Positions 35,303 to 54,358 of a DNA stretch of 64,000 nucleotides are shown one piece after another; within the stretch, counting starts at the first letter, position 1, and every line of letters begins with the position of its first letter. Source of the stretch: Krasilnikoviella flava (lineage in GTDB: Bacteria; Actinomycetota; Actinomycetes; Actinomycetales; Cellulomonadaceae); assembly GCF_900167525.1 (NCBI RefSeq), contig NZ_FUZQ01000008.1, positions 1 through 64,000 of the forward strand, written 5' to 3'. The notes under the pieces are model-generated. The model ran no database searches. It saw only the letters and a program-made list of their open reading frames with translations, and was not told the DNA's origin. A program made the position numbers and the translations under genes.

Positions 35303-35325
35303 CACCCCCGGTCGACGGCGCGGGT

Positions 35326-36720: not shown

Positions 36721-36767
36721 GGCCGGAAGACCTCTCTGTCAGTCCGTACGTGGTGCGGTGCGCGAGA

Positions 36768-36789: not shown

Positions 36790-36821
36790 CAAGACAGCCT
36801 CGACCTGACAATGGGGTGCCT

Positions 36822-38303
36822 GTGGTCACCGACGACCAGACCGAGCCCGGCAAGATCATCGCCGTCCACCTGAACTACCCGTCCCGCGCAGCGCAGCGGG
36901 GCCGGACGCCGGACCAACCGTCCTACTTCCTCAAGCCCGCGTCCTCGCTCGCCGCGACCGGCGGCACGATCGAGCGGCCGCTCGGCACGGAGCTGCTCGC
37001 GTTCGAGGGCGAGGTCGCGATCCGCATCGGCACCGCCGCCCGCTGGGTCTCCCCCGCGGACGGCTGGTCGCACGTCGACGCCGTCACCGCGGCGAACGAC
37101 CTCGGCCTCTACGACCTGCGCGTCGCCGACAAGGGCTCCAACCTGCGCAACAAGGGCGGCGACGGCTTCACCCCGCTCGGCCCGTCCTGGATCCCGGCGG
37201 CCGACGTCGACCCCGGCGGCCTGCGCGTGCGCACCTGGGTGGACGGCGAGCTCGTCCAGGACGACTCCACCAGCACGCTGCTGTTCGACTTCGGCCGCCT
37301 CGTCGCCGACCTCTCCCAGCACCTCACGCTCGAGCCCGGCGACGTGATCCTCACCGGCACCCCCGCGGGCTCGTCCGTCGTCGGGCCGGGGCAGGTCGTC
37401 GAGGTCGAGGTGGACGCCCCCGACGCACCCGGCGCGCCGACCAGCGGCCGCCTCGTCACCACCGTCACCGCCGGCACGCGCGCGTTCGGCGACTTCGGAG
37501 CGAAGCCCGCCGTCGACGAGAAGCAGCGCGCCGAGGCGTGGGGCCGATCGTCGGTCGAGCTTGTCGAGACCCAGGATTCGACAGCCTCGACCGACGGGTT
37601 CACCCTCCCCGACGCGCTGCGCGAGCGGTTCGCCGGCGTCGCCGTCGCCACGCTGTCGGCCGCGCTGCGCAAGCGCGGCTACACCGACGTCTTCGTCGAG
37701 GGCGTGCACGGCAACCACCCCGGCGACCGGTTCGTCGGCACGGCGCGCACGCTGCGCCTGATCCCGTTCCGGCCCGACCTGTTCGCCTCCCACGGCGGCG
37801 GGTTCAACGCGCAGAAGCGGGCGTTCGACACCGTCGCACCGGGCGAGGTGATCGTGGTCGAGGCGCGCGGCGAGCGCGGCACGGGCACCGTGGGCGACGT
37901 GCTCGCCCTGCGCGCCCACGTGCGCGGCGCCGCGGCGATCGTCACGGACGGCGGCGTGCGCGACTCGGACGCCGTCGCCGAGATCGGGATCCCCGTCTTC
38001 TCCCAGGGCCCGCACCCGTCCGTCCTCGGCCGCAAGCACGTGCCCTGGGAGACGGACGTGACCGTCGCATGCGGCGGAGCGTCCGTGCAGCCGGGCGACG
38101 TCGTCGTGGGCGACGGCGACGGCGTCCTCGTCATCCCGCCCGCTCTCGTCGAGGAGGTGCTCGCCGAGGCCGAGGCCCAGGAGGCCGCCGACGCGTGGGT
38201 CGCGACGCAGGTCGCCGCCGGCGCCCCCGTCGACGGCCTGTTCCCGATGAACGCCGAGTGGCGGGCCCGCTACGAGCGCGAGACCGCCGGGGGGGCCCGA
38301 TGA
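36822..38303 (+). CDS. FAH-family decarboxylase/isomerase fused to an RraA-like domain
   Basis: 493 residues, two domains. Residues about 12-225 are a fumarylacetoacetate-hydrolase-type domain as in HpaG (FLKPASSLAATGGTIERPLG, LAFEGEVAIRIG, GDVILTGTPAGSSVVG), which in homoprotocatechuate breakdown decarboxylates or isomerises the ring-opened acid. Residues about 265-480 are an RraA-like/HMG-aldolase-type domain (VATLSAALRKRGYTDVF, GDVLALRAHVRG, IVTDGGVRDSDAV). Enterobacterial HpaG has two FAH domains; here the second is replaced. The linker (about residues 243-258) is coded by a dispersed palindromic repeat and reads SSVELVETQDSTASTD. Start uncertain: GTG at 36822 or 36816, with only a weak GGGG ribosome site. 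First gene of the Hpa operon. Confidence 0.8.
   Translation: MVTDDQTEPGKIIAVHLNYPSRAAQRGRTPDQPSYFLKPASSLAATGGTIERPLGTELLAFEGEVAIRIGTAARWVSPADGWSHVDAVTAANDLGLYDLRVADKGSNLRNKGGDGFTPLGPSWIPAADVDPGGLRVRTWVDGELVQDDSTSTLLFDFGRLVADLSQHLTLEPGDVILTGTPAGSSVVGPGQVVEVEVDAPDAPGAPTSGRLVTTVTAGTRAFGDFGAKPAVDEKQRAEAWGRSSVELVETQDSTASTDGFTLPDALRERFAGVAVATLSAALRKRGYTDVFVEGVHGNHPGDRFVGTARTLRLIPFRPDLFASHGGGFNAQKRAFDTVAPGEVIVVEARGERGTGTVGDVLALRAHVRGAAAIVTDGGVRDSDAVAEIGIPVFSQGPHPSVLGRKHVPWETDVTVACGGASVQPGDVVVGDGDGVLVIPPALVEEVLAEAEAQEAADAWVATQVAAGAPVDGLFPMNAEWRARYERETAGGAR
37551..37594. repeat. Dispersed palindromic repeat, copy 1 (in frame, interdomain linker)
   Basis: Inverted repeat TCGGTCGAGCTTGTCGA (37551-37567) against TCGACAGCCTCGACCGA (37578-37594), two mismatches. 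It lies inside the FAH-RraA gene without breaking the frame and encodes the segment joining the two domains. Confidence 0.75.
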
Positions 38304-39037
38304 CGACGAAGCCCCCGCTGGTCGAGCCTGTCGAGACCCGGGTTTCGGCAGGCTCAACCACCATGAGCAAGTCGCAGCGGGCGTACGTCTTCCTGCGCGA
38401 GCGGATCGAGGACGGCCGCTACGTGCCGGGCTTCCGGCTCGTGCTGGCCCAGCTCGCCGGCGAGCTGGACATGTCCGTGGTGCCGGTGCGGGAGGCCATC
38501 CGCCGCCTGGAGGCCGAGGGGCTGGTGACGTTCGAGCGCAACGTCGGCGCCCAGGTCGCCCTCATCAAGGAGACCGAGTACCAGCACACGATGGAGACGC
38601 TGGCGCTGGTCGAGGGCTTCGCCACCGCGCTGTCGGCGCCGCACCTGTCCGCCGCCCAGCTCGACGCCGCGCGCGAGGTCAACGAGCGGATGCGCCGCTG
38701 CCTCGCCGACTTCGACCCGCACCGCTTCACCGAGCTCAACCTCGAGTTCCACGCGGTGCTGTTCGAGCCGTGCCCCAACCCGCACGTGCTCGACCTCGTC
38801 CACCGCGGCTGGCGGCGCATGACCGTGCTGCGCGACTCCTCGTTCGCGTTCGTGCCCGGCCGTGCCAAGGAGTCCGTCGCGGAGCACGACCGGATCCTCG
38901 ACCTCGTCGTCGCCCTGCAGGCCGGGGACGCCGACGCCACCGAGGTCGAGCTCGCCGCCCGCCGCCACCGCACCACCACCCTCGACGCCGTGCTCGCCCG
39001 CCAGGCGTCCCACCGGCCCCACCTTTCGGAGACGTGA
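38300..39037 (+). CDS. GntR family regulator (FCD type) of the Hpa operon
   Basis: 245 residues from the ATG at 38300, which overlaps the previous stop (ATGA). After an unusual N-terminal tail (MTTKPPLVEPVETRVSAGST), coded by a dispersed palindromic repeat, comes the GntR winged helix (SKSQRAYVFLRERIEDGRYV, GELDMSVVPVREAIRRLEAE) and an FCD domain with HRFTELNLEFHAVLFEPCPN and SVAEHDRILDLVVALQAGD. A second ATG at 38363 (MSKSQ) would remove the tail and could be the ancestral start. Being inside the operon, it probably senses a pathway acid and controls the MFS/Hpa divergent promoters. Confidence 0.88.
   Translation: MTTKPPLVEPVETRVSAGSTTMSKSQRAYVFLRERIEDGRYVPGFRLVLAQLAGELDMSVVPVREAIRRLEAEGLVTFERNVGAQVALIKETEYQHTMETLALVEGFATALSAPHLSAAQLDAAREVNERMRRCLADFDPHRFTELNLEFHAVLFEPCPNPHVLDLVHRGWRRMTVLRDSSFAFVPGRAKESVAEHDRILDLVVALQAGDADATEVELAARRHRTTTLDAVLARQASHRPHLSET
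38319..38360. repeat. Dispersed palindromic repeat, copy 2 (N-terminus of GntR)
   Basis: TGGTCGAGCCTGTCGAGACC (38319-38338) against GGTTTCGGCAGGCTCAACCA (38341-38360), three mismatches. In frame it encodes LVEPVETRVSAGSTT, directly before an alternative ATG start. Confidence 0.8.
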
Positions 39038-40548
39038 TGACCGACCAGAGCACCCCGCAGGCGCACCGCCCCGACGACCTGCCCACCGCGATCCGGCACT
39101 ACATCGACGGCCGCTTCGTCGACTCGGTCGACGGCGCCACCTTCGACGTGCTGGACCCGGTCTCGAACGAGACCTACCTGCAGGCCGCCGCGGGCAAGCA
39201 GGCCGACGTCGACGCGGCCGTCGCGTCCGCCCGCCGCGCGTTCACCGAGGGCCCGTGGCCGAGGATGCTGCCCCGCGAGCGGTCGCGGGTGCTGCACACG
39301 ATCGCCGACCTCGTGGAGTCGCGCGACGCCCGCCTCGCCGAGCTCGAGTCCTTCGACTCCGGCCTGCCGATCACGCAGGCGCTGGGCCAGGCGCGCCGCG
39401 CCGCCGAGAACTTCCGCTTCTTCGCGGACCTGATCGTGGCGCAGGCCGACGACACCTACAAGGTGCCCGGCCGCCAGATCAACTACGTCAACCGCAAGCC
39501 GATCGGCGTCGCCGGGCTCATCACGCCGTGGAACACGCCGTTCATGCTCGAGTCGTGGAAGCTCGCGCCCGCGCTGGCCACCGGGAACACCGTGGTGCTC
39601 AAGCCGGCCGAGTTCACGCCGCTGTCGGCGTCGCTGTGGGCCGGGATCTTCGAGGAGGCCGGGCTGCCCCAGGGCGTGTTCAACCTGGTCAACGGGCTCG
39701 GCGAGGAGGCCGGCGACGCGCTGGTCAAGCACCCGGACGTGCCGCTGATCTCGTTCACCGGCGAGAGCAGCACGGGCCGGCTGATCTTCGGCAACGCCGC
39801 CCCGCACCTCAAGGGCCTGTCGATGGAGCTCGGCGGCAAGTCCCCCGCCGTCGTCTTCGCCGACGCCGACCTCGACGCCGCGATCGACGCGACGATCTTC
39901 GGCGTCTTCTCCCTCAACGGCGAGCGCTGCACGGCCGGCTCCCGCATCCTCGTGGAGCGCCCGGTGTACGACGAGTTCGTCGAGCGTTACGCCGCCCAGG
40001 CGAAGCGCGTGCGCGTCGGCTACCCGCACGAGAAGACCACCGAGGTGGGCGCCCTCGTGCACCCCGAGCACTTCGAGAAGGTCATGAGCTACGTCGAGCT
40101 GGGCAGGACCGAGGGCCGTCTGGTCGCCGGCGGCGGCCGCCCCGAGGGCTTCGAGACGGGCAACTTCGTGGCCCCCACGGTGTTCGCCGACGTCAAGCCC
40201 GACGCCCGCATCTTCCAGGAGGAGATCTTCGGGCCCGTCGTCGCGATCACGCCCTTCGACACCGAGGCCGAGGCGCTCGAGCTGGCCAACGGCGTGAAGT
40301 ACGGCCTCGCGGCCTACGTGTGGACCAACGACCTCAAGCGGGCCCACAACTTCTCCCAGGCCGTCGAGGCCGGGATGGTGTGGCTGAACTCGAACAACGT
40401 GCGCGACCTGCGCACCCCGTTCGGCGGCGTCAAGGCGTCCGGCCTGGGCCACGAGGGCGGCTACCGCTCGATCGACTTCTACACCGACCAGCAGGCCGTG
40501 CACATCACGCTCGGCAAGGTCCACAACCCGACATTCGGCAAGAGCTGA
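39037..40548 (+). CDS. hpaE: 5-carboxymethyl-2-hydroxymuconate-semialdehyde dehydrogenase
   Basis: 503-residue NAD-dependent aldehyde dehydrogenase oxidising the ring-cleavage semialdehyde to the diacid. Motifs: GVAGLITPWNTPFMLESWKL (active-site Asn), FTGESSTGRLIF (cofactor glycines), MELGGKSPAVVF (general base Glu), and the catalytic cysteine in FSLNGERCTAGSRI. C-terminal NNVRDLRTPFGGVKASGLGH matches HpaE/HpcC proteins. The ATG overlaps the GntR stop (TGATG). Placement directly before the extradiol dioxygenase gene strongly supports the HpaE assignment over a generic ALDH. Confidence 0.92.
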   Translation: MTDQSTPQAHRPDDLPTAIRHYIDGRFVDSVDGATFDVLDPVSNETYLQAAAGKQADVDAAVASARRAFTEGPWPRMLPRERSRVLHTIADLVESRDARLAELESFDSGLPITQALGQARRAAENFRFFADLIVAQADDTYKVPGRQINYVNRKPIGVAGLITPWNTPFMLESWKLAPALATGNTVVLKPAEFTPLSASLWAGIFEEAGLPQGVFNLVNGLGEEAGDALVKHPDVPLISFTGESSTGRLIFGNAAPHLKGLSMELGGKSPAVVFADADLDAAIDATIFGVFSLNGERCTAGSRILVERPVYDEFVERYAAQAKRVRVGYPHEKTTEVGALVHPEHFEKVMSYVELGRTEGRLVAGGGRPEGFETGNFVAPTVFADVKPDARIFQEEIFGPVVAITPFDTEAEALELANGVKYGLAAYVWTNDLKRAHNFSQAVEAGMVWLNSNNVRDLRTPFGGVKASGLGHEGGYRSIDFYTDQQAVHITLGKVHNPTFGKS

Positions 40549-40575
40549 CCGGCCCCGACGGCAAGGACGCCTGAC

Positions 40576-41730
40576 ATGACCCACAAGAACGACCGCACCC
40601 TCACCTCCTCGGGCTTCTACGTGTCGCAGGAGGCCCCGATCCACTCGGACGACCCGGTGGCGACGCCGTCGAGCCCCGCGCCGGACATCCTGCGCTGCGC
40701 GTACATGGAGCTCGTCGTCACGGACCTCGCCGCCTCCCGCGCGTTCTACGTCGACGTGCTCGGCCTGTACGTCACCACGGAGGACTCCCGCAGCGTCTAC
40801 CTGCGCTCCACCGAGGAGTTCATCCACCACAACCTGGTGCTGCGGCAGGGCAACGTCGCCGCCGTCGCCGCGTTCTCCTACCGCGTGCGCACGCCGGAGG
40901 ACCTCGACAAGGCCGTCGCGTTCTACACCGAGCTCGGCTGCGAGGTGCGGCGCGAGCCGGGCGGCTTCACCCGCGGCATCGGCGACTCGGTGCGCGTGGT
41001 CGACCCGCTCGGCTTCCCGTACGAGTTCTTCCACGCCACCACGCACGTCGAGCGGCTGTCGTGGCGCTACGACCTGCACACTCCCGGCGAGCTGGTGCGC
41101 CTGGACCACTTCAACCAGGTGACCCCGGACGTGCCGCGGGCCGTGAAGTTCATGCAGGACCTGGGCTTCCGCGTCACCGAGGACATCCAGGACGACGAGG
41201 GCACCGTGTACGCGGCGTGGATGCGCCGCAAGCCCACCGTGCACGACACGGCGATGACCGGCGGCGACGGGCCGCGCATGCACCACGTGGCGTTCTCGAC
41301 CCACGAGAAGCACAACATCCTCGCCATCTGCGACAAGCTCGGGGCGCTGCGCCGCTCCGACTGCATCGAGCGCGGCCCGGGCCGGCACGGCGTGTCCAAC
41401 GCGTTCTACCTGTACCTGCGCGACCCGGACGGGCACCGCGTCGAGATCTACACGCAGGACTACTACACCGGCGACCCGGACAACCCCGTCGTCACCTGGG
41501 ACGTGCACGACAACCAGCGCCGCGACTGGTGGGGCAACCCCGTGGTGCCGAGCTGGTACACCGAGGCGTCCCTCGTGCTGGACCTCGACGGCGTCCCGCA
41601 GCCGGTGGTCGCGCGCACCGACGACTCCGAGATGGAGGTGACCGTGGGCGCCGACGGCTTCTCCTACACCCGCCGGGACGACGTCGACGGCGGCGGGGTA
41701 CAGGGGTTCAAGCTCGGGGCCACGCTGTGA
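40576..41730 (+). CDS. hpaD: 3,4-dihydroxyphenylacetate 2,3-dioxygenase (extradiol)
   Basis: 384-residue type I extradiol dioxygenase (vicinal oxygen chelate fold, two modules) that opens the ring of homoprotocatechuate. Metal ligands H178 (LDHFNQ), H237 (RMHHVAF) and E290 (HRVEIYT) and acid/base H223 (PTVHD) each sit 23 residues further than in the Brevibacterium fuscum/Arthrobacter enzymes, matching a longer N-terminus (MTHKNDRTLTSSGFYVSQEA). Family members use Fe(II) or Mn(II); sequence alone does not decide. AAGGA precedes the ATG. Soluble, probably a homotetramer by family. Confidence 0.93.
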   Translation: MTHKNDRTLTSSGFYVSQEAPIHSDDPVATPSSPAPDILRCAYMELVVTDLAASRAFYVDVLGLYVTTEDSRSVYLRSTEEFIHHNLVLRQGNVAAVAAFSYRVRTPEDLDKAVAFYTELGCEVRREPGGFTRGIGDSVRVVDPLGFPYEFFHATTHVERLSWRYDLHTPGELVRLDHFNQVTPDVPRAVKFMQDLGFRVTEDIQDDEGTVYAAWMRRKPTVHDTAMTGGDGPRMHHVAFSTHEKHNILAICDKLGALRRSDCIERGPGRHGVSNAFYLYLRDPDGHRVEIYTQDYYTGDPDNPVVTWDVHDNQRRDWWGNPVVPSWYTEASLVLDLDGVPQPVVARTDDSEMEVTVGADGFSYTRRDDVDGGGVQGFKLGATL

Positions 41731-42548
41731 CGGCCGCCCCGAGCGCGCCAGACGGGGAGCGCACCCTCGACGACGACGCCGTCGTCGCCATCGCCGACGA
41801 GCTCGCCGAGGCCGACCGCACCCGCACACCCGTCCCGCTGCTCACCGCGCGGCACGCGGGCATGACGGTGGCCGACGCGTACGCCGTGCAGCGCACGTGG
41901 CGCGAGCGCGGGGAGGCGCGCGGGCGCCGCGTCGTCGGGCACAAGATCGGCCTGACGTCGAAGGCCATGCAGGCCGCGACCGGCATCACCGAGCCCGACT
42001 ACGGCGTCATCTTCGACGACATGGTGATCGAGTCGGGCAGCGTCGTCGAGCACGCCGCGTACTCGAACGTGCGCGTCGAGGTGGAGCTGGCGTTCGTGCT
42101 CGCCGAGCCGCTGGCCGGGCCCGGCGTCACCGTGACCGACGTGCTGCGCGCCACCGATCGCGTCGTGCCCGCCCTGGAGATCCTCGACGCCCGCGTCGAG
42201 ATGCCGGGCCGCACCATCGTCGACACGATCAGCGACAACGCCGCCATGGGTGCCATGGTGGTGGGCGGGCGGCCCGTCCGGGTCGACGACGTCGACCTCC
42301 GATGGGTGTCCGCCCTGCTGTACCGCAACGAGACGATCGAGGAGACAGGCGTGGCCGCCGGGGTGCTCGGGCACCCCGCCGCGGGCGTCGCCTGGCTCGC
42401 GAACAAGCTGGCGGCGCACGGCGACTCGCTCGCCGCCGGCGAGACCGTCCTGGCCGGGTCGTTCACCCGCCCCACGTGGGTGCACCCCGGCGACACCGTG
42501 CACGCCGACTACGGGACCCTGGGGGCCGTGACATGCCGCTTCGTCTGA
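41727..42548 (+). CDS. hpaH: 2-oxo-hept-3-ene-1,7-dioate hydratase
   Basis: 273 residues of the hydratase/decarboxylase (MhpD/HpaH) family, which adds water to 2-oxo-hept-3-ene-1,7-dioate. Recognisable: [76 protein letters not shown] and [20 protein letters not shown], with acidic metal ligands in the E-x-E of VEVELAF. The GTG start overlaps the dioxygenase stop (GTGA); its 3' end overlaps the aldolase gene by 16 bases. Confidence 0.9.
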
Positions 42549-43363
42549 CGACCGACCGCTCGCTCTCGGCCGTCCTGGCCGACACGGCCGCCGAGGGCCG
42601 CGCCGCCGTCGGCGCCTGGTCGTCGATGGGCAGCCCCGTGGCCGCGGAGATCCTCGCCGGCAGCGGCCTGGACGTCGTGCTGGTCGACGGCGAGCACGGA
42701 CCCAACGACCTCACCACGGTCCTCGCGCAGCTCCAGGCCACGGCCGCCTACCCGGTCGCGACGCTCGTGCGGGTACCGTCCGGCGACCCGGTGGGCCTCA
42801 AGCGCGTGCTCGACCTGGGCGCCACCAACGTGCTGGTGCCCATGGTCGACTCCGCCGCCGAGGCGGACGCCGCCGTGCGCGCCGTGCGCTACCCGCCCGC
42901 CGGGATCCGCGGCGTCGGCAGCGCGCTCGCGCGCTCCTCGCGCTGGAACGGCGTGCCCGGCTACCTCGCCGGCGCGGACGAGGGCATCACGCTCGTCGTG
43001 CAGCTCGAGACCCGCGCGGCGATCGACGACGCCGCGGCCATCGCCGGCACGGACGGCGTCGACGCCGTCCTGATCGGGCCCGCCGACCTGGCCGCGTCGC
43101 TCGGCCACCTCGGGCAGCAGGACCACCCGGAGGTCGTCGACGCGGTGGTCACGGCCCTGGCGGCGTGCCGGGAGGCCGGGACGCCCGCGGGCGTCAACGC
43201 CTTCGACCCGGCCATGGCCGACCGCTACCTTGACGCCGGGGCGTCGTACGTCGTCGTCGGCGCCGACGTCACCCTGATCGCCCGCGGGGCCGGGGAGCTC
43301 GCCGCCCGCGTCGCCTCTCGCACCCCCACGACCGCACAGCCGAAGGACGGTGGACACCGATGA
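42533..43363 (+). CDS. hpaI: 4-hydroxy-2-oxo-heptane-1,7-dioate aldolase
   Basis: 276-residue class II (metal-dependent) aldolase of the HpcH/HpaI family. It splits 4-hydroxy-2-oxoheptanedioate into pyruvate and succinate semialdehyde. Motifs: GLDVVLVDGEHGPNDLTTV, LGATNVLVPMVDSAAEADAA, VRYPPAGIRGVGSALARSSR, VVQLETRAAIDDAAAIAG (metal Glu) and DAVLIGPADLAASLGHLGQ (metal Asp). It starts inside the end of hpaH and overlaps the next gene by 4 bases (ATGA). Confidence 0.92.
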   Translation: MPLRLTTDRSLSAVLADTAAEGRAAVGAWSSMGSPVAAEILAGSGLDVVLVDGEHGPNDLTTVLAQLQATAAYPVATLVRVPSGDPVGLKRVLDLGATNVLVPMVDSAAEADAAVRAVRYPPAGIRGVGSALARSSRWNGVPGYLAGADEGITLVVQLETRAAIDDAAAIAGTDGVDAVLIGPADLAASLGHLGQQDHPEVVDAVVTALAACREAGTPAGVNAFDPAMADRYLDAGASYVVVGADVTLIARGAGELAARVASRTPTTAQPKDGGHR

Positions 43364-44853
43364 CGACTGTCTCGACAAGCTCAACCAGCGAGCGTCGCGA
43401 GCGCGCGGCCGAGCTCCTGCCCGCCACTCCGACGGGGCTGCTGATCGGCGGCACGTGGCGCGAGGCGTCCGACGGCGGCACGTTCGCCGTCGAGAACCCG
43501 GCCACCGGGGAGACGCTGACGCGCGTCGCCTCCGCGACCGGCGACGACGCGCGGGCCGCGCTGGACGCCGCCGCGGCCGCCCAGGCCTCGTGGGGCGCGA
43601 CCCCGGCGCGCGAGCGCGCCGAGATCCTGCGCCGCGCGTTCGCCCTCGTGCAGGAGCGCCGCGAGGACCTGGCCCTGCTCATGACCCTCGAGATGGGCAA
43701 GCCGCTGGCCGAGGCGCGTGGCGAGGTCACCTACGGCGGCGAGTTCCTGCGCTGGTTCGCGGAGCAGGCCACGCACGACGACAGCCGATACGCGCACACC
43801 CCCGAGGGGTCGCTCCGGATGCTGGTGCAGCGCCGCCCGGTGGGCCCGTGCCTGCTCATCACGCCGTGGAACTTCCCGCTCGCGATGGCCACCCGCAAGG
43901 TGGCGCCCGCCGTCGCCGCCGGCTGCACCATGGTGCTCAAGCCGGCCCGGCTCACGCCCCTGACGTCGCTGCTGTTCGCGCAGCTCATGGTCGAGGCCGG
44001 CCTGCCCGACGGCGTGCTCAACGTGGTGCCCTCCGCCTCCGCCTCGGCGGTGAGCGAGCCCCTGATGGCGGACCCGCGGCTGCGGAAGGTGTCGTTCACC
44101 GGGTCCACGCCGGTGGGGCAGAACCTGTTGCGGTCCGCCGCCGACAACGTGCTGCGTACCTCGATGGAGCTCGGCGGCAACGCGCCGCTCGTCGTCTTCG
44201 AGGACGCCGACCTCGACGTCGCCGTCGACGGCGCGATGGCCGCCAAGCTGCGCAACGGCGGCGAGGCCTGCACCGCCGCCAACCGGTTCTACGTGCACGA
44301 GTCCGTGGCCGACGAGTTCGTCGAGCGGTTCGCCGAGCGCATGCGCGCCGTCGTCGTCGGGGACGGGCTGGACGAGGGGACCACGCTGGGCCCGCTCGTC
44401 GAGGCCAAGGCCGTCGACTCCGTCGCCGCGCTCGTGGACGACGCCGTCGCGCGCGGCGCGAAGGTCGTCGTCGGCGGTTCGCGCGTCGACGGGCCCGGGC
44501 ACTTCTACCAGCCCACCCTGCTGCGCGACGTGCCCGCAGACGCCCGCTGCATGACCGAGGAGATCTTCGGCCCCGTGGCCCCGGTCGCGACGTTCAGCAC
44601 CGAGGACGAGGCGGCACGGCTCGCCAACTCCACGGAGTACGGGCTCGCGTCGTACGTCTTCACCGCCGACGTGCGCCGCGGCCTCGCGTTCGCCGAGCGC
44701 CTCGAGTTCGGGCTGCTGGGCCTCAACGCCGGCGTCATCTCCAACGCGGCCGCGCCGTTCGGCGGGATGAAGCAGTCCGGAAGCGGCCGCGAGGGCGGCT
44801 TCGAGGGCATCGCCGAGTACCAGGAGACGCAGTACGTCGGCATGCCCCTCTGA
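43360..44853 (+). CDS. gabD: Succinate-semialdehyde dehydrogenase
   Basis: 497-residue aldehyde dehydrogenase of the GabD type, converting the aldolase product succinate semialdehyde to succinate for the TCA cycle. Motifs: PCLLITPWNFPLAMATRKVA (catalytic Asn), FTGSTPVGQNLLRSAADNV, MELGGNAPLVVF (base Glu), the catalytic cysteine in LRNGGEACTAANRFYV, and PFGGMKQSGSGREGG. The first codons (TVSTSSTSERRE) come from half of a dispersed palindromic repeat. ATGA overlap with hpaI. Last gene of the operon, followed by a 64-bp palindrome. Confidence 0.92.
   Translation: MTTVSTSSTSERRERAAELLPATPTGLLIGGTWREASDGGTFAVENPATGETLTRVASATGDDARAALDAAAAAQASWGATPARERAEILRRAFALVQERREDLALLMTLEMGKPLAEARGEVTYGGEFLRWFAEQATHDDSRYAHTPEGSLRMLVQRRPVGPCLLITPWNFPLAMATRKVAPAVAAGCTMVLKPARLTPLTSLLFAQLMVEAGLPDGVLNVVPSASASAVSEPLMADPRLRKVSFTGSTPVGQNLLRSAADNVLRTSMELGGNAPLVVFEDADLDVAVDGAMAAKLRNGGEACTAANRFYVHESVADEFVERFAERMRAVVVGDGLDEGTTLGPLVEAKAVDSVAALVDDAVARGAKVVVGGSRVDGPGHFYQPTLLRDVPADARCMTEEIFGPVAPVATFSTEDEAARLANSTEYGLASYVFTADVRRGLAFAERLEFGLLGLNAGVISNAAAPFGGMKQSGSGREGGFEGIAEYQETQYVGMPL
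43369..43387. repeat. Dispersed palindromic repeat, copy 3 (half element, start of gabD)
   Basis: GTCTCGACAAGCTCAACCA, one arm of the element in the reverse orientation, three codons after the ATG of the succinate-semialdehyde dehydrogenase, encoding VSTSSTS in frame. No second arm is apparent. Confidence 0.65.
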
Positions 44854-44854
44854 C

Positions 44855-44918
44855 CCGAGATAGAGCGCGCGCCGCGCCGAGATAGATCTATCTCGGCGCG
44901 GCGCGCGCTCTATCTCGG
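44855..44918. terminator. Perfect 64-bp palindrome, bidirectional terminator
   Basis: The 32 bases 44855-44886 are followed directly by their exact reverse complement 44887-44918, with no loop. Each half holds CCGAGATAG twice, so alternative nested hairpins can form. It lies one base after the gabD stop codon and 11 bases before the end of the convergent E2 gene, so it should end transcription in both directions and could extrude a cruciform in DNA. Confidence 0.85.
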
Positions 44919-44929
44919 CTGGACTCGGG

Positions 44930-46432: not shown

Positions 46433-46472
46433 CGTTCTCCTCCGGTCCGCGAACCGTGCGTGTCAGTGGGGG

Positions 46473-47486: not shown

Positions 47487-48655
47487 CGGGCCGCCTCCGT
47501 GCTCGTCTCGTTCTCGTACTGCTCGTACCAGGCCCGTTCGGCCTGGACCTGCGCGTGCTCGGTCGCGTACACGTGCTCGAACATCGTCGTCGCGGGCGGG
47601 GCGCCGAGCTCGCGCACCTCCTTGCGCAGCCGCTCGCCCAGGGCGTCGGCCTCCCGCTCGATCCCGGCGGCCCATCCGTCGTCCCAGCCGTCCTCGGCAC
47701 GCAGCAGCGCCGCCAGGCGGTCGATCGGGTCGCGGCGCGCCCAGTGGTCCTCCTCCGCGCGGGCCCGGTACCGGCTCGGGTCGTCGGAGGTGGTGTGGGC
47801 GCCCATGCGGTACGTGTACGCCTCGACGAAGGTGGGGCCGCCGCCGGAACGGGCGCGCTCCAGCGCCTCGGCCGTCACGGCGTAGCAGGCCAGGACGTCG
47901 TTGCCGTCCACGCGGACGCTGGGGATGCCGAAGCCCTCGCCGCGCCGGTACAGCGGCGCGCGCGACTGGCGCGACGTCGGCTCCGAGATCGCCCACTGGT
48001 TGTTCTGCAGGAAGAACACGACCGGCGCGTTGTTGACGGCCGCGAAGACGAGCGCCTCGCTGACGTCGCCCTGGCTCGTGGCGCCGTCGCCGAAGTAGGT
48101 GACGACGGCGGCGTCGCGCCCGGCGTCGCCGGTGCCGACCGCGCCGTCGCGCTGCACGCCCATCGCGTAGCCCGTGGCGTGCAGCACGTGGGAGCCGATG
48201 ACGAGGGTGTACAGGTGCACATTGTGCTCGGCCGGGTCCCAGCCGCCGTGGTCGGCGCCGCGGTACAGGCGGAGGCGGTCGACGGGGTCGACGCCGCGGC
48301 TCTGGAGCACGCCGTGCTCGCGGTAGGAGGGGAAGACGTAGTCCTGCGGCGCCAGCGCGGCGGCCGACCCGACCTGGGCGGCCTCCTGGCCACGGCCCTG
48401 CGCGTACAGCGCGAGCTCGCCCTGCCGCTGCAGGGCCGTGGCCTCGTCGTCGAACCGTCGCGTCAGCACCATGTCGCGGTACAGGGCGCGCAGATCCTCG
48501 GAGGTGAGGTGGTCGACACGCGAGCGGTAGGTCGCGTTGTCGGGTTCGACGACACGCTCGCCGGTGGGCGAGACGAGCTGGACCAGGGGGTCGACGTCAG
48601 CGGGCGCAATGTCGGCGGGCGCGACGTCGGGCTCGCCGGGGGTGGTGTGCGGCAC
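47483..48655 (-). CDS. bkdA: Branched-chain 2-oxoacid dehydrogenase E1 alpha subunit
   Basis: 390 residues. ThDP/Mg motif VTYFGDGATSQGDVSEALVF with NNAPVVFFLQNNQWAISEPT; phosphorylation-loop-like YRMGAHTTSDDPSRY; LYRDMVLTRRFDDEATALQR at the start of the domain. An N-terminal tail (PHTTPGEPDVAPADIAPADV) precedes LVSPTGERV, as in actinobacterial BkdA/PdhA-like proteins. The GTG at 48655 is chosen because AAGGAG is 5 bases upstream; longer readings run through the operator region. First gene of the bkd operon, behind tandem palindromes. Confidence 0.92.
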   Translation of the reverse strand: MPHTTPGEPDVAPADIAPADVDPLVQLVSPTGERVVEPDNATYRSRVDHLTSEDLRALYRDMVLTRRFDDEATALQRQGELALYAQGRGQEAAQVGSAAALAPQDYVFPSYREHGVLQSRGVDPVDRLRLYRGADHGGWDPAEHNVHLYTLVIGSHVLHATGYAMGVQRDGAVGTGDAGRDAAVVTYFGDGATSQGDVSEALVFAAVNNAPVVFFLQNNQWAISEPTSRQSRAPLYRRGEGFGIPSVRVDGNDVLACYAVTAEALERARSGGGPTFVEAYTYRMGAHTTSDDPSRYRARAEEDHWARRDPIDRLAALLRAEDGWDDGWAAGIEREADALGERLRKEVRELGAPPATTMFEHVYATEHAQVQAERAWYEQYENETSTEAAR

Positions 48656-48751
48656 GCGGTCTCCTTCGCTGTCGGCCCCTGGACGGGGCTGGGCTGCTCC
48701 GGCATGGGAGGAGGTCCCGCCGAGCCCACCAGAACGGTGGCCCACCGGAAC

Positions 48752-48781
48752 CTACGCCTTCGTAGCCTACGCCAGCGTAGG
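48752..48781. promoter_or_regulatory. Tandem palindromic operators before the bkd operon
   Basis: Two adjacent inverted repeats, CTACG-CCTT-CGTAG (48752-48765) and CCTACG-CCAG-CGTAGG (48766-48781). The outer arms also pair, forming nested AACCTACG/CGTAGGTT. They lie about 100 bases before the E1 alpha start. Such CTACG-N4-CGTAG sites are typical for TetR-like dimers; the regulator is not in the window. Confidence 0.65.
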
Positions 48782-48836
48782 TTGCCGTCCAGGGGGCACA
48801 CCCCCCGACGGTGGTGCCAACGTCCTCCGCGTCAGA

Positions 48837-48853
48837 TTGGAGGTTTCCTCCAA
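48837..48853. promoter_or_regulatory. Palindrome TTGGAGG-TTT-CCTCCAA upstream of bkd
   Basis: Perfect 7-bp arms around TTT, about 55 bp upstream of the tandem operators and 32 bp before the end of the next gene. It may be a second regulator site for the bkd promoter or a short terminator for the upstream gene. Confidence 0.45.
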
Positions 48854-48884
48854 CATGGCAGGCGTCCACCGGCCCTCGACCTGG

Positions 48885-49151
48885 TCAGCGCGGGTACGCC
48901 TGCCCGGCCCGCAGCGCGTCCCGTTCGCGCAGCACGGGCCAGCGCGAGAAGGCGAACACGAGGAACATCACCACGTTGAGGATCGGCACGATGCCGACCA
49001 GGACCCACCAGCCCGAGTAACCGGCCTTCTGGATGATCCGGATGTACGCGATCAGGAAGATCACGGCGATCGCCACGTACACGGCGATGGCGGCCCCACC
49101 CACGAGCCACCCGTAGTCGTCGGCGAGCTGGTCGTAGTCCACGGTGTCCAT
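48885..49151 (-). CDS. Small two-helix membrane protein (DUF805-like region)
   Basis: 88 residues. Two hydrophobic segments: YGWLVGGAAIAVYVAIAVIF and WWVLVGIVPILNVVMFLVFA, joined by LIAYIRIIQKAGYSGW. The YSGWW...P-x-LN pattern resembles small inner-membrane proteins of unknown function. The ATG at 49151 is chosen because sequence before it (rich in Arg/Pro) is not protein-like; the ribosome site is weak. It is divergent from the RidA gene and upstream of bkd on the same strand, but a 229-base gap with operators separates them. Role unknown. Confidence 0.65.
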   Translation of the reverse strand: MDTVDYDQLADDYGWLVGGAAIAVYVAIAVIFLIAYIRIIQKAGYSGWWVLVGIVPILNVVMFLVFAFSRWPVLRERDALRAGQAYPR

Positions 49152-49255
49152 GGCGGGGAGTCTTCCGCCGCGCGGCGGCGGCGCAACCGGAACCCGCGCG
49201 GCGTGTCGGTGGCGCACGACATGCTCGGGGGACACCTCGACGAAGGGACGCGCCC

Positions 49256-49654
49256 ATGAGCACGCAGTCGACGCCGACGCCGGTCAACCCGCCGCAGCTG
49301 CACCAGAACCCCGCGTTCGCGTGGGGCATGATCCTGCCCGCCGGGCGCACGCTCTACGTGGGCGGGCAGAACGGCACCGGCCCCGACGGAGCCCTCGTGG
49401 ACGGCGGGCCCGGGCCGCAGACGGAGCAGGCGCTGAACAACGTGCTCGCCGTCCTCGCCGAGGCCGGTACCGACGCGGAGCACGTCGCCAAGCTGACGAT
49501 CTACCTGGACCCGTCGGTCGACCCGAACGACGCCTACGCCGCGTCCGGCAAGGTCTGGCGCTCGCGCACCGCGGTCACCGTGCTCGCCGTCGCGCCGGCC
49601 CGGCCCGGCGCGCTCGTCGAGGTCGAGGCGGTCGCGACGGTCCCCGAGGGCTGA
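49256..49654 (+). CDS. RidA family protein (enamine/imine deaminase-like)
   Basis: 132 residues of the YjgF/RidA family. Members hydrolyse reactive enamine/imine intermediates released by PLP enzymes, or act in unknown ways. Seen: GRTLYVGGQNGTGPDGALVD, TEQALNNVLAVLAEAGTDAE, VAKLTIYLDPSVDPNDAY and PGALVEVEAVATVPE. The catalytic arginine of true RidA proteins (R-x-x-V near residue 105) is not at its expected place (RTAVTVLAVAPARPG), so deaminase activity is uncertain. GAAGGGA precedes the ATG. Next to bkd, branched-chain or threonine metabolism is a plausible context. Confidence 0.85.
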   Translation: MSTQSTPTPVNPPQLHQNPAFAWGMILPAGRTLYVGGQNGTGPDGALVDGGPGPQTEQALNNVLAVLAEAGTDAEHVAKLTIYLDPSVDPNDAYAASGKVWRSRTAVTVLAVAPARPGALVEVEAVATVPEG

Positions 49655-49674
49655 CGCGCCCGCAGACGGCACCC

Positions 49675-49680
49675 TAGGCT
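49675..49680 (+). promoter_or_regulatory. -10 box (TAGGCT) of a probable leaderless promoter
   Basis: TAGGCT, 7 bases, then the GTG of the small membrane protein gene; no ribosome binding site. Same layout as at 1061 and 29754. Confidence 0.4.
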
Positions 49681-49687
49681 GACGGCC

Positions 49688-49942
49688 GTGCGCAGACACC
49701 GCGGTCGCAGGATCCTCCGGGTGGTAGCTGTGCTGGCGGCGCTCTTCGCCGTCGCCGACGGCTTCCGTTGGGGGAACCGCTGGTACGTCTCGACGATGTT
49801 CGAGGACTCCTCGCCCGAGTACGCCCTCGAGATCATCGCCAAGGCCCACGACGCGCTGGTGCACGGGCTGCTCTGGCTCGTCGTCGCAGTCCTGGCCGCC
49901 GCCGTCGGGTGGCAGCTCCGGGTGGTGCGGCGGCCGGCATGA
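49688..49942 (+). CDS. Small hypothetical membrane protein
   Basis: 84 residues with two hydrophobic segments, RILRVVAVLAALFAVADGF and GLLWLVVAVLAAAVGW, and basic ends (MRRHRGRR, RVVRRPA). I do not recognise the family. The loop FRWGNRWYVSTMFEDSSPEY would face outside by the positive-inside rule. The GTG start fits a leaderless promoter. No functional link to neighbours is evident. Confidence 0.5.
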   Translation: MRRHRGRRILRVVAVLAALFAVADGFRWGNRWYVSTMFEDSSPEYALEIIAKAHDALVHGLLWLVVAVLAAAVGWQLRVVRRPA

Positions 49943-50006
49943 CCGGGTTCGACCGGATCGCGGGCGCGACCGTGATCCACGCCACCCCGCATGGCACGCT
50001 CGTGCG

Positions 50007-52298
50007 GTGACCGTCACCTCCGGCCGCGCCGACGCCGCCGCCACGATCGACCGCTCCCCTGCCGTCGACGCCCTCCTCCACCTGCGGGCGGACGGCGTCA
50101 GCGTGCTGATCGACGCCCGCGGCGGCGAGCTGCCCGCCGTCGTGCACTGGGGCGACGACCTCGGCCCGCTGACCGCCGACGACGCGGCCGCCGTCGCCCT
50201 CGCCGCGGCGGCGCCGCTCGCCAACAGCGCCCCGGACGAGCCGGTGCGGCTCGCGCTGGTGCCGGAGCCGCGCACGGGCTGGCTCGGCCGCCCGGGGATC
50301 GTCGGCGAGCGCGACGGCGACGCCTGGTCGCCGCGCTTCACCACGACGGTCGCGACGCTCTGCGGCGGCACCCTGCCCCGCGGCCTCACCGAGGCCGGGG
50401 CCGGGGCGCTGCGCGTCGAGGCCCAGGACGAGGTCGCGGGCCTCACGCTGGTGCTCGACGTCGAGCTCACCCCCGACGGCGTGCTGCGCGCCCGCGCCAC
50501 GCTCCGCAACGACGGGGCCCCGTACCGGCTGCACGAGCTCGCCGTCGTGCTCCCGGTGCCGCCGCGGGCGCGCGAGGTCCTCGACCTCACGGGCCGGTGG
50601 GGCAAGGAGCGGGTGCCGCAGCGGCGCGACCTCGCGGTCGGCACGCACCTGCGCGAGGGCCGCCGCGGCCGCACGGGCTTCGAGGCGCCCACGGTGCTGA
50701 CGGTGGGCGTGCCCGGCTTCGGCTTCGGGCACGGCGAGGTGTGGGGCCTGCACGTGGGCTGGTCGGGCAACCACCGGCACTGGGCGGAGCGGCTGCCCAC
50801 CGGCGAGCAGGTGCTGGGCGGCAGCGAGCTGCTGCTGCCCGGCGAGGTGACGCTCGCGACCGGCGCGGAGTACGAGACCCCCTGGGTGTACGGCGTGCAC
50901 GGCCACGGCCTGGACGCGCAGGCCGCGCGCCTGCACCGGATGCTGCGCCGTCGCACGGGGCACCCGCGCGACCCGCGCCCGGTGACGCTCAACGTCTGGG
51001 AGGCCGTCTACTTCGACCACGACCTGGAGCGCCTCACGGCGCTGGCCGACGCCGCCGCCGACCTGGGCGTGGAGCGCTACGTGCTCGACGACGGCTGGTT
51101 CCGCGGGCGGCGAGACGACACGCGGGGGCTGGGCGACTGGTTCGTCGACGAGGACGTCTGGCCGGACGGGCTGGACCCGATCGCGGACCACGTGCACGGC
51201 CTCGGCATGCAGTTCGGGCTGTGGTTCGAGCCCGAGATGGTCAACCTCGACTCCGACCTGGCCCGGGCCCACCCGGAGTGGGTCATGGGCGCCGGCGGCC
51301 GCGTGCCGGTGCCGTCGCGGCACCAGCACGTGCTCGACCTGTCGGACCCCGACGCCGCCGCGTACGTGCTGGAGCGGATGAGCACGCTGATCGGCCGCCA
51401 CGGCGTGGACTACGTGAAGTGGGACCACAACCGCGACCTCGTGGACCCCGGTTCCGGTCGGGAGGGGCGGCCCGTCGTGCACGCCCAGACGCTCGCCGCC
51501 TACGGGATCATGGCCGAGCTGCGGCGGCGGCACCCCGGGCTGGAGATCGAGTCCTGCTCGTCGGGCGGAGGCCGCGTCGACCTGGGCGTCGCCGAGCACA
51601 CGCAGCGCGTGTGGGTGTCGGACTGCACCGACCCGCTGGAGCGGCAGCAGATGCAGCCGTGGACGGCGCAGCTGCTGCCGCTGGAGTACCTGGGCGCGCA
51701 CGTCGCGGCGGACGTCAGCCACCAGACCCGCCGCGCGCACTCCCTCGCGTTCCGGGCGGCGACGGCGCTGTTCGGCCACTTCGGGATCGAGTGGGACCTC
51801 ACGCGCTCGACGCCCGAGCAGCTCGCCGACCTGCGCGGCTGGATCGAGCTGTACAAGGCGGAGCGCGGGCTGCTGCACACGGGCACGCTCGTGCGCCAGG
51901 ACCTGCCCGCGGGCGACGGCCTGCAGGTGTGGGGCGTGGTCGCGGCGGACCGTTCCGCCGCCCTGTTCCAGCTCGCGACCCTGTCCCGGCCCTCCGTCGC
52001 ACCGCTCGGCCGCTTCACCCTGCGCGGCCTGGACCCGGAGCGCCGGTACCGCGTCACTCCCCTGCCGCTGAGCCGCGAGGCGTTCGGTGTCTGGAACGCG
52101 CCACCCTGGTTCGGGCTGCCGTCCGCCGACGGCGCGGTCGCCTCCGACGGCGTCTCGCCGCAGCCCCGGCCCGCGCAGCCCGGCGACGTCCCCCGCGGCA
52201 CCGTGCTGACCGGGCGCACGCTCGCCGTCGCCGGGCTGCAGGCTCCCGAGTCCGCGCCCGAGACGTCCCTGGTGCTGCGCGTGGAGGCGGTGGACTGA
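50007..52298 (+). CDS. GH36 alpha-galactosidase
   Basis: 763 residues, full length for GH36. N-terminal beta-supersandwich (to about 300), catalytic barrel with RYVLDDGWFRGRRDDTRGLG, the nucleophile D473 in VDYVKWDHNRD, ESCSSGGGRVDLG, and acid/base D539 in WVSDCTDPLER, then a C-terminal beta domain. Hydrolyses alpha-galactosides (raffinose type or galactose side chains). No signal peptide. GTG start lacks a ribosome site; CACGCT 6 bases upstream may be a poor leaderless -10. Convergent with the DUF2264 gene, 20 bases apart. It may serve the neighbouring glycan locus. Confidence 0.93.
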   Translation: MTVTSGRADAAATIDRSPAVDALLHLRADGVSVLIDARGGELPAVVHWGDDLGPLTADDAAAVALAAAAPLANSAPDEPVRLALVPEPRTGWLGRPGIVGERDGDAWSPRFTTTVATLCGGTLPRGLTEAGAGALRVEAQDEVAGLTLVLDVELTPDGVLRARATLRNDGAPYRLHELAVVLPVPPRAREVLDLTGRWGKERVPQRRDLAVGTHLREGRRGRTGFEAPTVLTVGVPGFGFGHGEVWGLHVGWSGNHRHWAERLPTGEQVLGGSELLLPGEVTLATGAEYETPWVYGVHGHGLDAQAARLHRMLRRRTGHPRDPRPVTLNVWEAVYFDHDLERLTALADAAADLGVERYVLDDGWFRGRRDDTRGLGDWFVDEDVWPDGLDPIADHVHGLGMQFGLWFEPEMVNLDSDLARAHPEWVMGAGGRVPVPSRHQHVLDLSDPDAAAYVLERMSTLIGRHGVDYVKWDHNRDLVDPGSGREGRPVVHAQTLAAYGIMAELRRRHPGLEIESCSSGGGRVDLGVAEHTQRVWVSDCTDPLERQQMQPWTAQLLPLEYLGAHVAADVSHQTRRAHSLAFRAATALFGHFGIEWDLTRSTPEQLADLRGWIELYKAERGLLHTGTLVRQDLPAGDGLQVWGVVAADRSAALFQLATLSRPSVAPLGRFTLRGLDPERRYRVTPLPLSREAFGVWNAPPWFGLPSADGAVASDGVSPQPRPAQPGDVPRGTVLTGRTLAVAGLQAPESAPETSLVLRVEAVD

Positions 52299-52318
52299 AC
52301 CCCCACCGGTGACCGGCG

Positions 52319-54358
52319 TCAGCGGCCGTCGACGACCACCTCGTCGACGGCACCGTCCGCCCAGGCCGCGCGCGCGACGCCGGGGACCGGGAACGTGACC
52401 TCGGGGGCGTCGGCGGGCGCCTCCCCCGCGAGCGCCACGGCCGCCGCGTACCAGCGGCCGGGCTCCGGTGCGCCGTCGGTCGCGAGCCAGGGCACGCAGG
52501 TGGTACCGGCCAACGGCGTGACGCCGACGAGCTGCTCGACGCCCGCGCGCGCGAACGCGCCCCGCCCGTCGGCGGTGCGCAGCACGGAGGCGAGCGGGGT
52601 CTCGACAGGCTCGACCGGCGAGGCAGGCTCGACGAGCGGGGCGGGTGCGACGACCGCGTGGGCGGCGCCGTCGCCGGCCGCGGCGTCGACGACGTCTCCG
52701 GTCACGGGCCACCCCCCGACCCGCAGCCCGGCCGGCACGACGTCGTCGCCGAGGCCTGGCGCGACCCGCACGAGCCGCACCTCCCACGCCCCGCGCAGCA
52801 GGCTCACGGCCTCCAGCCACGGCCCGAGGCGCGGGCTGCCGGAGGCGTCCGGGTAGCCGGAGCCGTGGTCGGGCGCGGAGGGGTCGGGCTCCACCCAGTG
52901 CGACCGCCAGCGCGAGCTCCCGACCGACGTGCCACCGTCGAGCAGGCTCACGTGGCCGTCCTCGAACCCGGTGCGGTGGCTGGGCTCCCCGGCGCCGTCG
53001 AGCAGCACCACGGACTGGTCGAGCGGCCGGTGCCGCAGGTCCCCGGCCACGACGGGCCACGTCGCGGTGGAGTAGCCGAGGCGGGAGTAGAGCGGGCCGT
53101 CGCTCAGCCCGGAGCCGGGGCGCGAGTGGTCGGTGCCGTGGTTGAGCACGCGGACCAGGCCGTCGGCGCGCGTGCCGCTCACCTGCCAGCCGGCCTGGCC
53201 GACGACGAACGACGTGTCGCGGACCTCGACGGGCAGCGGCTCCTCGACCGCCGTCCACGCGGGGTGCTCGGGCGGCAGCACGAGGCCCAGCAGCCCCTTG
53301 GACGCCCAGTACGGCGACCCCGGGCCGGAGTACCGCTGCGCCAGCGGCCGCCACGACCCGTACCAGCCGAGCGTGAGCAGCCCGTCGTCGTCGGGGGCGC
53401 CGCGCTCCACGAAGTGCTTGACGACGCCCGACGCCGCCCGGCGCAGCAGGCCGGGGGACCCGGCGTCGGCCATCGCGCCGACCCAGAACGGGGCTGCCGC
53501 CGCGAACCGGTAGGTGAGCGAGCGGCCCTGCACCAGGGGCCCGCCGTCGCCGCCGACCAGCCCGAGCGCGTCGGGGAGGAACAGCTCCAGGCGCTCGTGC
53601 GCCGTCGCGGCCGCGGCGTCCGCCTCCGCGCGGCCGGCCGCCATCCGTGCCCACAGCACCGGGTACAGGTGCATGGCCCAGCCGACGTAGTGGTCGTAGG
53701 AGCGCTCGTCGCCGTCGGCGTACCACCCGTCGCCGCGGTAGAACCCGTCCAGCGTCGCGACCTCCTCGCGGACGCCGGACAGGTCGTCCAGCGCCCCCAC
53801 GGAGTGCAGGAACTCCCGGACGACGACGCGGAACCACAGCCAGTTGATCGGCGGGTAGAAGGTGTCGAGGCCGTCGGACAGGTAGTCGACCACGCGCTCC
53901 TGGACCGCCGGGTCGAGCCGCTCCCACAGCCACGGGCGGGTGAGGTGCAGGCCCAGCGCGACCGACGCCGCCTCGACCTTCGCCTGGCCGTGCTCGTGCA
54001 GGCGCGGCCACGCCTCGGCCGACTCCGGGTCGGTCCCGGCGGCGAGCCCCTCGGCGTAGCGCTCCAGGAACCCGTGCGGGTCCTGGCCGCGGGAGCCCGC
54101 GACCCGGAACGCGGCAGTGAGGAACGTGCGCGCGAACCCCTCGAGGGCGTCGATGCGCGCGCCGTAGCCGCCGGTCTCCCCGGGCAAGGCGATCCCCGCG
54201 TGCGCGGGCGACGCCCAGCGGCGGGCGGAGAGCAGCAGGTGGTCGGCCAGGGCCTCCCAGTGCGCCCGCGTCCAGCCGGTGTGCGGGGACAGGACGTGGT
54301 CGTCGAGGTCGCGCAGGCGCGCGGCGAAGCCGGTGGGTCGGGTGGCGGGGGCGGTCAT
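52319..54358 (-). CDS. DUF2264 domain protein (glycan-locus associated)
   Basis: 679 residues. The N-terminal two-thirds matches DUF2264, an (alpha/alpha)-barrel-type domain often found with polysaccharide lyases and unsaturated-glucuronyl hydrolases: INWLWFRVVVREFLHSVGAL, FYRGDGWYADGDERSYDHYV, YVGWAMHLYPVLWARM, GRSLTYRFAAAAPFWVGAMA, LLTLGWYGSWRPLAQRYSGP, GSPYWASKGLLGLVLP. The C-terminal part is beta-rich. A linker near residues 560-585 (APLVEPASPVEPVETPLAS) comes from the dispersed palindromic repeat. No signal peptide. The ATG overlaps the regulator stop (ATGA), so it is co-expressed with it. Enzymatic role unproven; hydrolase of uronate-containing oligosaccharides is an inference from family context. 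Confidence 0.8.
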   Translation of the reverse strand: MTAPATRPTGFAARLRDLDDHVLSPHTGWTRAHWEALADHLLLSARRWASPAHAGIALPGETGGYGARIDALEGFARTFLTAAFRVAGSRGQDPHGFLERYAEGLAAGTDPESAEAWPRLHEHGQAKVEAASVALGLHLTRPWLWERLDPAVQERVVDYLSDGLDTFYPPINWLWFRVVVREFLHSVGALDDLSGVREEVATLDGFYRGDGWYADGDERSYDHYVGWAMHLYPVLWARMAAGRAEADAAAATAHERLELFLPDALGLVGGDGGPLVQGRSLTYRFAAAAPFWVGAMADAGSPGLLRRAASGVVKHFVERGAPDDDGLLTLGWYGSWRPLAQRYSGPGSPYWASKGLLGLVLPPEHPAWTAVEEPLPVEVRDTSFVVGQAGWQVSGTRADGLVRVLNHGTDHSRPGSGLSDGPLYSRLGYSTATWPVVAGDLRHRPLDQSVVLLDGAGEPSHRTGFEDGHVSLLDGGTSVGSSRWRSHWVEPDPSAPDHGSGYPDASGSPRLGPWLEAVSLLRGAWEVRLVRVAPGLGDDVVPAGLRVGGWPVTGDVVDAAAGDGAAHAVVAPAPLVEPASPVEPVETPLASVLRTADGRGAFARAGVEQLVGVTPLAGTTCVPWLATDGAPEPGRWYAAAVALAGEAPADAPEVTFPVPGVARAAWADGAVDEVVVDGR
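52599..52638. repeat. Dispersed palindromic repeat, copy 5 (DUF2264 gene)
   Basis: GGTCTCGACAGGCTCGACC (52599-52617) is an intact arm, followed by a partial second piece GCAGGCTCGACGAGC (52624-52638). On the coding strand it reads LVEPASPVEPVET, in frame, inside a variable region of the protein. Confidence 0.75.

Follow-up and report, generated by a model that had tools for sequence, protein, structure and literature searches.

Does a short DNA repeat that is met again and again inside genes aim at coding sequence, or is it found there for some other reason? The question is raised by the first 64,000 nucleotides (nt) of contig NZ_FUZQ01000008.1 from Krasilnikoviella flava (this whole stretch is called the window below), in which a first-pass annotation had reported a palindromic repeat with the core GAGCCTGTCGAGACC at five places, all of them within genes. 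Repeat units were indeed found at all five, and no unit reaches 13 bits in the first 37 kb, where the annotation had seen none either, but the genic location turned out to be a local run in the window and not a rule across the genome. We regard it as probable, with room left for doubt, that the repeat is a non-autonomous, dispersed stem-loop resembling the repetitive extragenic palindromes (REPs), that it is copied by a factor reading its loop, and that selection leaves the copies behind stop codons and in protein linkers.

The unit behaves as a stem-loop of 19 nt, in which four covarying base pairs surround the 11-nt loop GAGCYTGTCGA, and most units in K. flava can be written (CCGNY)GGTY-loop-RACC. 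The pair next to the loop is C-G or T-A, and its two sides covary both in K. flava units (Fisher test, 4.6e-9) and in other genomes (3.6e-20). Among 45 units from other contigs, pairs 2-4 were Watson-Crick in 34-37 cases, compared to 16-18 in shuffled versions, with none of 1000 shuffles as good; the count for pair 1 was 37, compared to 31 (3 of 1000); pair 5 did not rise above the shuffles, and pairs 6-8 did so weakly (94, 56 and 32 of 1000 shuffles as good). Single units and tandem runs of them occur, but inverted pairs are the most frequent arrangement; each such pair forms a single hairpin of 50-56 nt, and the consensus 56-mer folded as DNA reaches -34.7 kcal/mol (z -11.5). Neighbouring units stand head to head in 59 of 78 pairs, with spacers of 1-2 nt (19) and 8 nt (24). 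The 24 spacers of 8 nt have the consensus CGGTCCGT, which holds 5.82 bits compared to 3.04 (sd 0.35) for random intergenic 8-mers, and this may reflect a common descent of the pair, or CGG may be pairing with the CCG of the unit itself. Other genomes show a different spacing, and as exact close pairs are missing from 5 of the 14 repeat-rich genomes, it is the unit and not the pair that is common to all. A known RNA family was rejected, since Rfam at the gathering threshold gave no match in the window and four loci.

The genome of K. flava (4.85 Mb in 10 contigs) contains 213 units with at most one mismatch, 82 of them exact, and none of the reversed pattern, which removes the worry that there are just a few copies by chance. 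Chance similarity between GC-rich sequences is likewise ruled out by controls that were zero or near zero; in the window itself, 16 matches with up to three mismatches stand against a mean of 6.46 in shuffled versions, and none of 100 shuffles reached 16. With a weight matrix built from 95 units and a threshold of 13 bits, the contig of the window (C2, 363 kb) has 50 units in 30 elements and the reversed contig none, while the syntenic contig of Isoptericola sp. 4D.3 (360 kb) has three. Strict matches number 139 in the K. flava genome and 0-9 in 17 congeners, and the repeat has therefore probably spread in the K. flava lineage, a natural experiment in which congeners with few or no copies can be set beside a genome with about 200 near-exact units. 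The same scarcity is seen more widely, as six of 394 genomes of the class have at least 30 units and all others at most seven; of 50 named genomes, 40 are without any unit, and among the others are Promicromonospora soli with 112 and P. iranensis UTMC 3169 with 76. Counts in another family of the class range from 0 to 155, and 70 of the 120 genomes have one unit or more.

Isoptericola sp. 4D.3 is about 90% identical to the window over positions 34870-52301, which makes a comparison site by site possible. On C2, 25 of the 30 sites could be aligned, and judged by eye the repeat is lacking in 22, a related hairpin is present in two (226136 and 233982), and the element at C2:260331, a 13-bit match, is identical in both genomes and is probably a chance match. 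The site in the DUF2264 gene and four others on C2 have no alignable counterpart in the compared stretch of 4D.3. Where copies are shared, both arms change together, which was seen by eye in five pairs (three in P. iranensis and two in Isoptericola), one of which, that at 233982, also has one unmatched change. Template switching between arms is reported to create and keep hairpins (PMC8794818), and it would explain such concerted arms without selection. Some changes in length fall within genes: those of 24 and 30 nt are in the favoured frame, and another, of 27 nt at a P. iranensis site, is in a called gene in another frame. At two gene ends of 4D.3, the counterparts of C2:81787 and C2:88872, stand hairpins of another family, about GTGAGCGCGATYTCGGGGACTATYCG with an inverted copy, the core of which was found neither in C2 nor in the other examined K. 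flava loci.

The position of the elements relative to genes answers the opening question most directly. Genes were called with our own script based on codon usage, not a standard gene finder, which makes 91% of C2 coding, and the same K. flava codon statistics were applied to other genomes too. We located 92 elements, 30 on C2 and 62 elsewhere, the latter taken around exact matches and biased to well-kept copies. The C2 elements divide into 12 within genes, 6 across a gene end and 12 between genes; outside C2 the numbers are 17, 8 and 37. No more than 29 of the 92 elements are thus genic although nearly all of the contig is coding, and for this strong depletion we reject an element aimed at genes; the claim that all copies are genic holds for the window, with one doubtful case, but not for the genome. 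Stretches of other repeat-rich genomes gave a similar picture (13 of 48 elements in genes). Of the 49 intergenic elements, 41 lie within 20 nt of a stop codon. Convergent gaps hold 23 of them compared to 8.3 expected by gap length, and divergent gaps two, among them C2:260331, compared to 16.6, where the expectations are based on C2 gap lengths only. The other 24 stand in tandem gaps, 22 of them nearer to the upstream stop, at a median distance of 8.5 nt from that stop and 50 nt from the downstream start.

The copies that do lie in genes keep to a rule of their own. In 27 of the 29 the reading frame gives a VEPVET form in one direction or a VSTGST form in the other, as the first-pass annotation had noticed, an element being counted as in frame when at least one arm is; the two exceptions are a marginal 13-bit match at 208350 and a locus with a doubtful gene start (L018). 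The commonest form of the unit has no stop codon in any frame, so that the choice of frame is mainly a peptide or codon matter and not one of avoiding stops, and the GGTTGAG form has a stop in one frame. Spacers of 2 and 8 nt both preserve the frame. A Pfam scan of 23 of the 29 elements, in 20 proteins, placed 17 outside the domain envelopes, where 28% of the residues lie, with both figures tallied by hand. The reported preference for linkers and protein ends is therefore true of most copies, which sit in linkers, termini or loops, but six were found inside domains. Examples are the linkers of the FAH-RraA protein and of two E2 proteins; in a carboxylase the element sits in the gap ahead of the BT domain, in a LigD-type ligase in the linker that joins the first domain to the second, and in two CoA-transferase subunits in the tail. 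One 10-kb stretch (locus L037, C8:88500-100800) has six intragenic elements in four genes: a second E2 gene with three elements, a biotin carboxylase alpha-type subunit and two CoA-transferase subunits. In another genome (G146, locus L271, 2025-2198) six in-frame tandem units of 30 nt encode (GVSTSSTTED)n in a called gene of 194 amino acids.

How could such a distribution come about? We imagine a trans-acting enzyme that would recognise the loop, perhaps on single-stranded DNA, and copy the stem-loop to new places. Its landing would not be aimed at coding sequence, selection would remove the copies that break genes, and the survivors would be those behind stops, plus a few in tolerant linkers. 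The hairpins behind stops may mark or protect transcript ends, and existing copies could be remodelled by slippage, with the 24- and 30-nt changes in genes as possible traces, and by correction from arm to arm. The frame rule would then be what selection leaves after an untargeted landing. An apparent in-frame insertion can, in other words, come from selection alone, with the VEPVET-like linkers as a by-product. What remains of the mobile maker of linkers proposed at first is a short dispersed element, common here and rare in congeners, with genic copies that keep the frame and lie mainly in linkers, termini or loops; what finds no support is the idea that in-frame insertion into genes is its habit.

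Several observations weigh against this explanation. No mobiliser was found: the REP transposase family PF01797, the only one searched, had no match in the K. flava genome and none in a set of 18 genomes, eight of them repeat-rich, compared to 5 of 14 control genomes. Neither clean insertion junctions nor target duplications were seen in comparisons at about 88-93% identity, and the net changes in length are usually smaller than the element and zero in one case (gabD). Two P. iranensis strains, about 93% identical, share 15 of 19 alignable sites at a lenient threshold of 4 bits (about 12 clearly by eye), from which it follows that movement there is slow and that part of the difference in their exact counts, 76 and 22, is drift. 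The covariation also has its weak points, since pair 4 hardly varies in K. flava units (85 of 1000 shuffles as good) and loci of three other genomes (G365, G146 and G237) vary at pair 3 only. Under standard energy rules, single units fold no better than shuffles (four sequences, with z of 0.08, -0.08, 0.34 and 0.24); strong folding is a property of pairs or long-stemmed forms, and the stem-loop of the single unit accordingly rests on covariation. The two arms of a pair hardly correlate in their single-position variants (summed test, p about 0.02), and 27 of 82 units have CGG at +0 or +1, which gives the second reading of the spacer consensus its footing. Finally, it is from position only that a role at transcript ends is suggested.

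The chief rival is a signal motif that does not move, i.e. a word for uptake or binding that arises by mutation in place, is kept by selection or molecular drive, is often paired as a terminator and is tolerated in one frame. We think it unlikely, but it would fit a constant loop on free stems, two arms that are nearly independent, replacement at equal length at gabD and near-equal length at a phosphoglucomutase site (net +3 nt compared to 4D.3), and the many sites common to the two P. iranensis strains. It agrees less well with the few or absent copies in 17 congeners, with the shared consensus of the spacers and with the extra 27, 36 and 33 nt that K. flava has over 4D.3 at three of the four window sites compared, and a word bound as duplex would have no need for a covarying stem. 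Uptake signals, the DNA uptake sequences (DUS) and uptake signal sequences (USS), combine a short constant word, inverted pairs at gene ends and a frame preference in coding copies. The K. flava repeat has the same three features, but it differs in the stem that covaries around the word and in the 0-9 copies found in congeners of a genome with 139. If the repeats were instead hairpin terminators, which arise convergently or by replacement at gene ends and leave coding copies as a by-product, the strong preference for convergent gaps and places just after stops would be natural, and so would the other hairpins that 4D.3 has at several of the same gene ends and the paired arms that change together. 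Convergence cannot, however, yield the same 11-nt loop so often, and it accounts neither for genic copies in one frame nor for units that stand singly; we find this explanation improbable.

The reading of the first-pass annotation, a coding-directed element that spreads by in-frame linkers in the manner of the Rickettsia palindromic elements, draws on the in-frame copies and recurrent peptides in linkers and tails, and also on the 50-nt form of the pair (2-nt spacer), which is mostly genic (7 of 10, compared to 5 of 49 other pairs; Fisher 2e-4, for C2 and loci L014-L069). The positions of the 92 elements largely refute it, and we give it very little credence. The likeness to the Rickettsia elements is partly real, as both are palindromic repeats that lie in frame in unrelated genes, but those are described as about 150 bp long, with nearly half of them inserted in genes (PMC10969869), while ours measure 19-56 nt and are mostly outside genes; size and position are the traits compared. 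Least credible of all is a classical REP family, or its paired form, the REP doublet forming hairpins (REPIN), moved by a resident or recently lost REP-associated tyrosine transposase (RAYT) of the Y1 type. Size, copy number, inverted pairs and the place behind genes all match, but the search for PF01797 was negative even in the repeat-rich genomes, on which ground a RAYT-borne REPIN was rejected, and a superfamily survey reports that the Actinobacteridae in its sample have no subclass other than IS200 (PMC6006769).

The dispersed stem-loop copied through its loop, which we prefer, is nevertheless close to the REPs in appearance. With the REPs, the bacterial interspersed mosaic elements (BIMEs) and the REPINs, which depend on RAYT (TnpA-REP), it has in common a short imperfect palindrome, more than 100 copies, inverted pairs, a place mainly behind genes and a patchy occurrence among relatives. 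It differs in that no RAYT was found and in that the constant part is the loop, while in REPs it is the foot; a foot of the GTAG type is not seen here, as the conserved positions before the loop read about CCGNYGGTY. As neither a RAYT nor such a foot was found, the repeat is not filed as a RAYT-type REP. The CGTC-tagged REPs are more similar in some respects (Di Nocera 2013, PMC3733652). They have no known dedicated transposase (PF01797 is the family searched for ours), and like our repeat they form head-to-head dimers, lie behind genes and have some copies within genes; they are described with stems of 8-9 bp, mostly starting with A-T, and loops of 4-5 nt, and the word "Actinobacteri" does not occur in the text of that paper. 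Our repeat has four covarying pairs and a constant loop of 11 nt, and only some of its units can be read as having a CGTC tag, two positions of which vary, so it does not fit that description. Compared to miniature inverted-repeat transposable elements (MITEs), inverted arms are present, but clean junctions and duplications were not seen at the identity given above. Four 15-mers of the wider motif were not found printed in the papers searched, shorter strings were met, among the matches listed, in work that by title is unrelated, and searches by topic and genus gave nothing on the K. flava repeat.

The same loop is found on other stems in unrelated bacteria, on proteobacterial plasmids among other places. 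As a query we used the motif CCTGAGCYTGTCGAAGG, which we take to be widespread, a choice that is a weakness in the sampling but not in the controls. It occurs in at least 120 stretches of viral contigs, against six for its reversed form. Among the 120 matches listed, which range from 32 to 73% GC, the 11-nt core appears at 47 places outside CCTGAGCYTGTCGAAGG, and at 29 of these it sits between complementary arms that make a stem of 3 bp or more, with sequences that are diverse, compared to five places and no stems for three control cores. These 47 cores (45 after removal of near-duplicates) come from contigs chosen for the CCT-loop-AGG form, and that form itself was excluded. In 760 kb of Isoptericola sp. 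4D.3 a looser core occurs at 148 places with one stem, and the reversed core at 74 places with two stems, which tells us that background cores come without stems. A 33-mer of the wider motif has related sequences on 54 plasmids, by name mostly of Moraxella, Sphingobium and Sinorhizobium. Two weak plasmid matches were obtained with a stretch that contains the motif five times, and one Arthrobacter plasmid with the 56-mer consensus. The CCT-loop-AGG form is present in 12 copies in the K. flava genome too and absent from 115 of 118 sampled genomes of the class, and for this reason both forms may have been spread by one activity. We infer that repeats with the constant loop GAGCYTGTCGA make up one class of stem-loop. 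Whether the loop, on any stem of four bp, is the recognition mark of one conserved machinery, and so defines a class of RAYT-independent, REP-like elements that crosses phyla and includes the CCTGAGCYTGTCGAAGG-type repeats on plasmids of Sphingobium, Comamonas, Moraxella and others, is a more daring thought, which we put forward tentatively and with somewhat more doubt than belief. A constant loop on freely covarying stems would offer a handle on REP-like spread without RAYT, and its structure names what an enzyme or binding protein should read across very different base compositions. In another genome (G237; loci L278, 1300-1850, L279, 9440-9720, and L281, 1420-1720), there are direct arrays of units in alternation with a second stem-loop, of the type GGTGGTCGAGGAGGTTGCGCAGCAACCGTCTCGAGACC, whose frame GGTCGAG...CGAGACC is similar and whose apical stem is longer.

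Back in the window, three of the five places are inverted pairs, and the other two, at 43368 and 52598, are single units at the 13-bit threshold and not the palindromes they had been taken for. The first pair, 50 nt long, lies in the FAH-RraA gene (36822-38303), flanked by the Pfam domains FAA_hydrolase and RraA-like, with the left arm at 37548-37571 on the forward strand (38 bits, peptide SSVELVET) and the right arm at 37574-37597 on the reverse strand (23 bits, DSTASTD). The second, also of 50 nt, stands before or at the N-terminus of a GntR regulator, with arms at 38315-38338 (forward, 40 bits) and 38341-38364 (reverse, 22 bits). It falls between the FAH stop and a possible start at 38363, and may be an untranslated leader, but an upstream ATGA start is found in two relatives as well, which makes its coding status uncertain. 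The third, of 56 nt, is in the linker between the lipoyl and E3-binding domains of the bkd E2 protein, with arms at 45897-45920 (forward, 35 bits) and 45929-45952 (reverse, 36 bits), and adjoining it are three diverged units in an in-frame 30-nt tandem at 45959-46042 on the reverse strand (14, 23 and 13 bits), which encode peptides such as VEPAVTAPS and VEPVVTAPS. Compared to 4D.3, which has no repeat at these three sites, K. flava is longer by a net 27 nt at FAH-RraA, 36 nt at GntR and 33 nt over the whole E2 cluster; two relatives lack the repeat at the FAH and GntR sites and five at E2.

The single unit at the N-terminus of the gabD-like aldehyde dehydrogenase (43368-43391, reverse strand, 29 bits, peptide TVSTSSTS) does not follow this pattern. 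4D.3 shows no net length difference at this site, which speaks against a simple insertion, and in a second relative the stretch is shorter by 12 nt. The other single unit, at 52598-52621 on the reverse strand (40 bits, SPVEPVET), covers residues 580-587 of the 679 in the DUF2264 protein and lies in its C-terminal part, beyond the DUF2264 domain (30-374). The window also contains a perfect inverted repeat with arms of 32 nt and no spacer at 44855-44918, between the convergent aldehyde dehydrogenase and E2 genes, which is perhaps a terminator.

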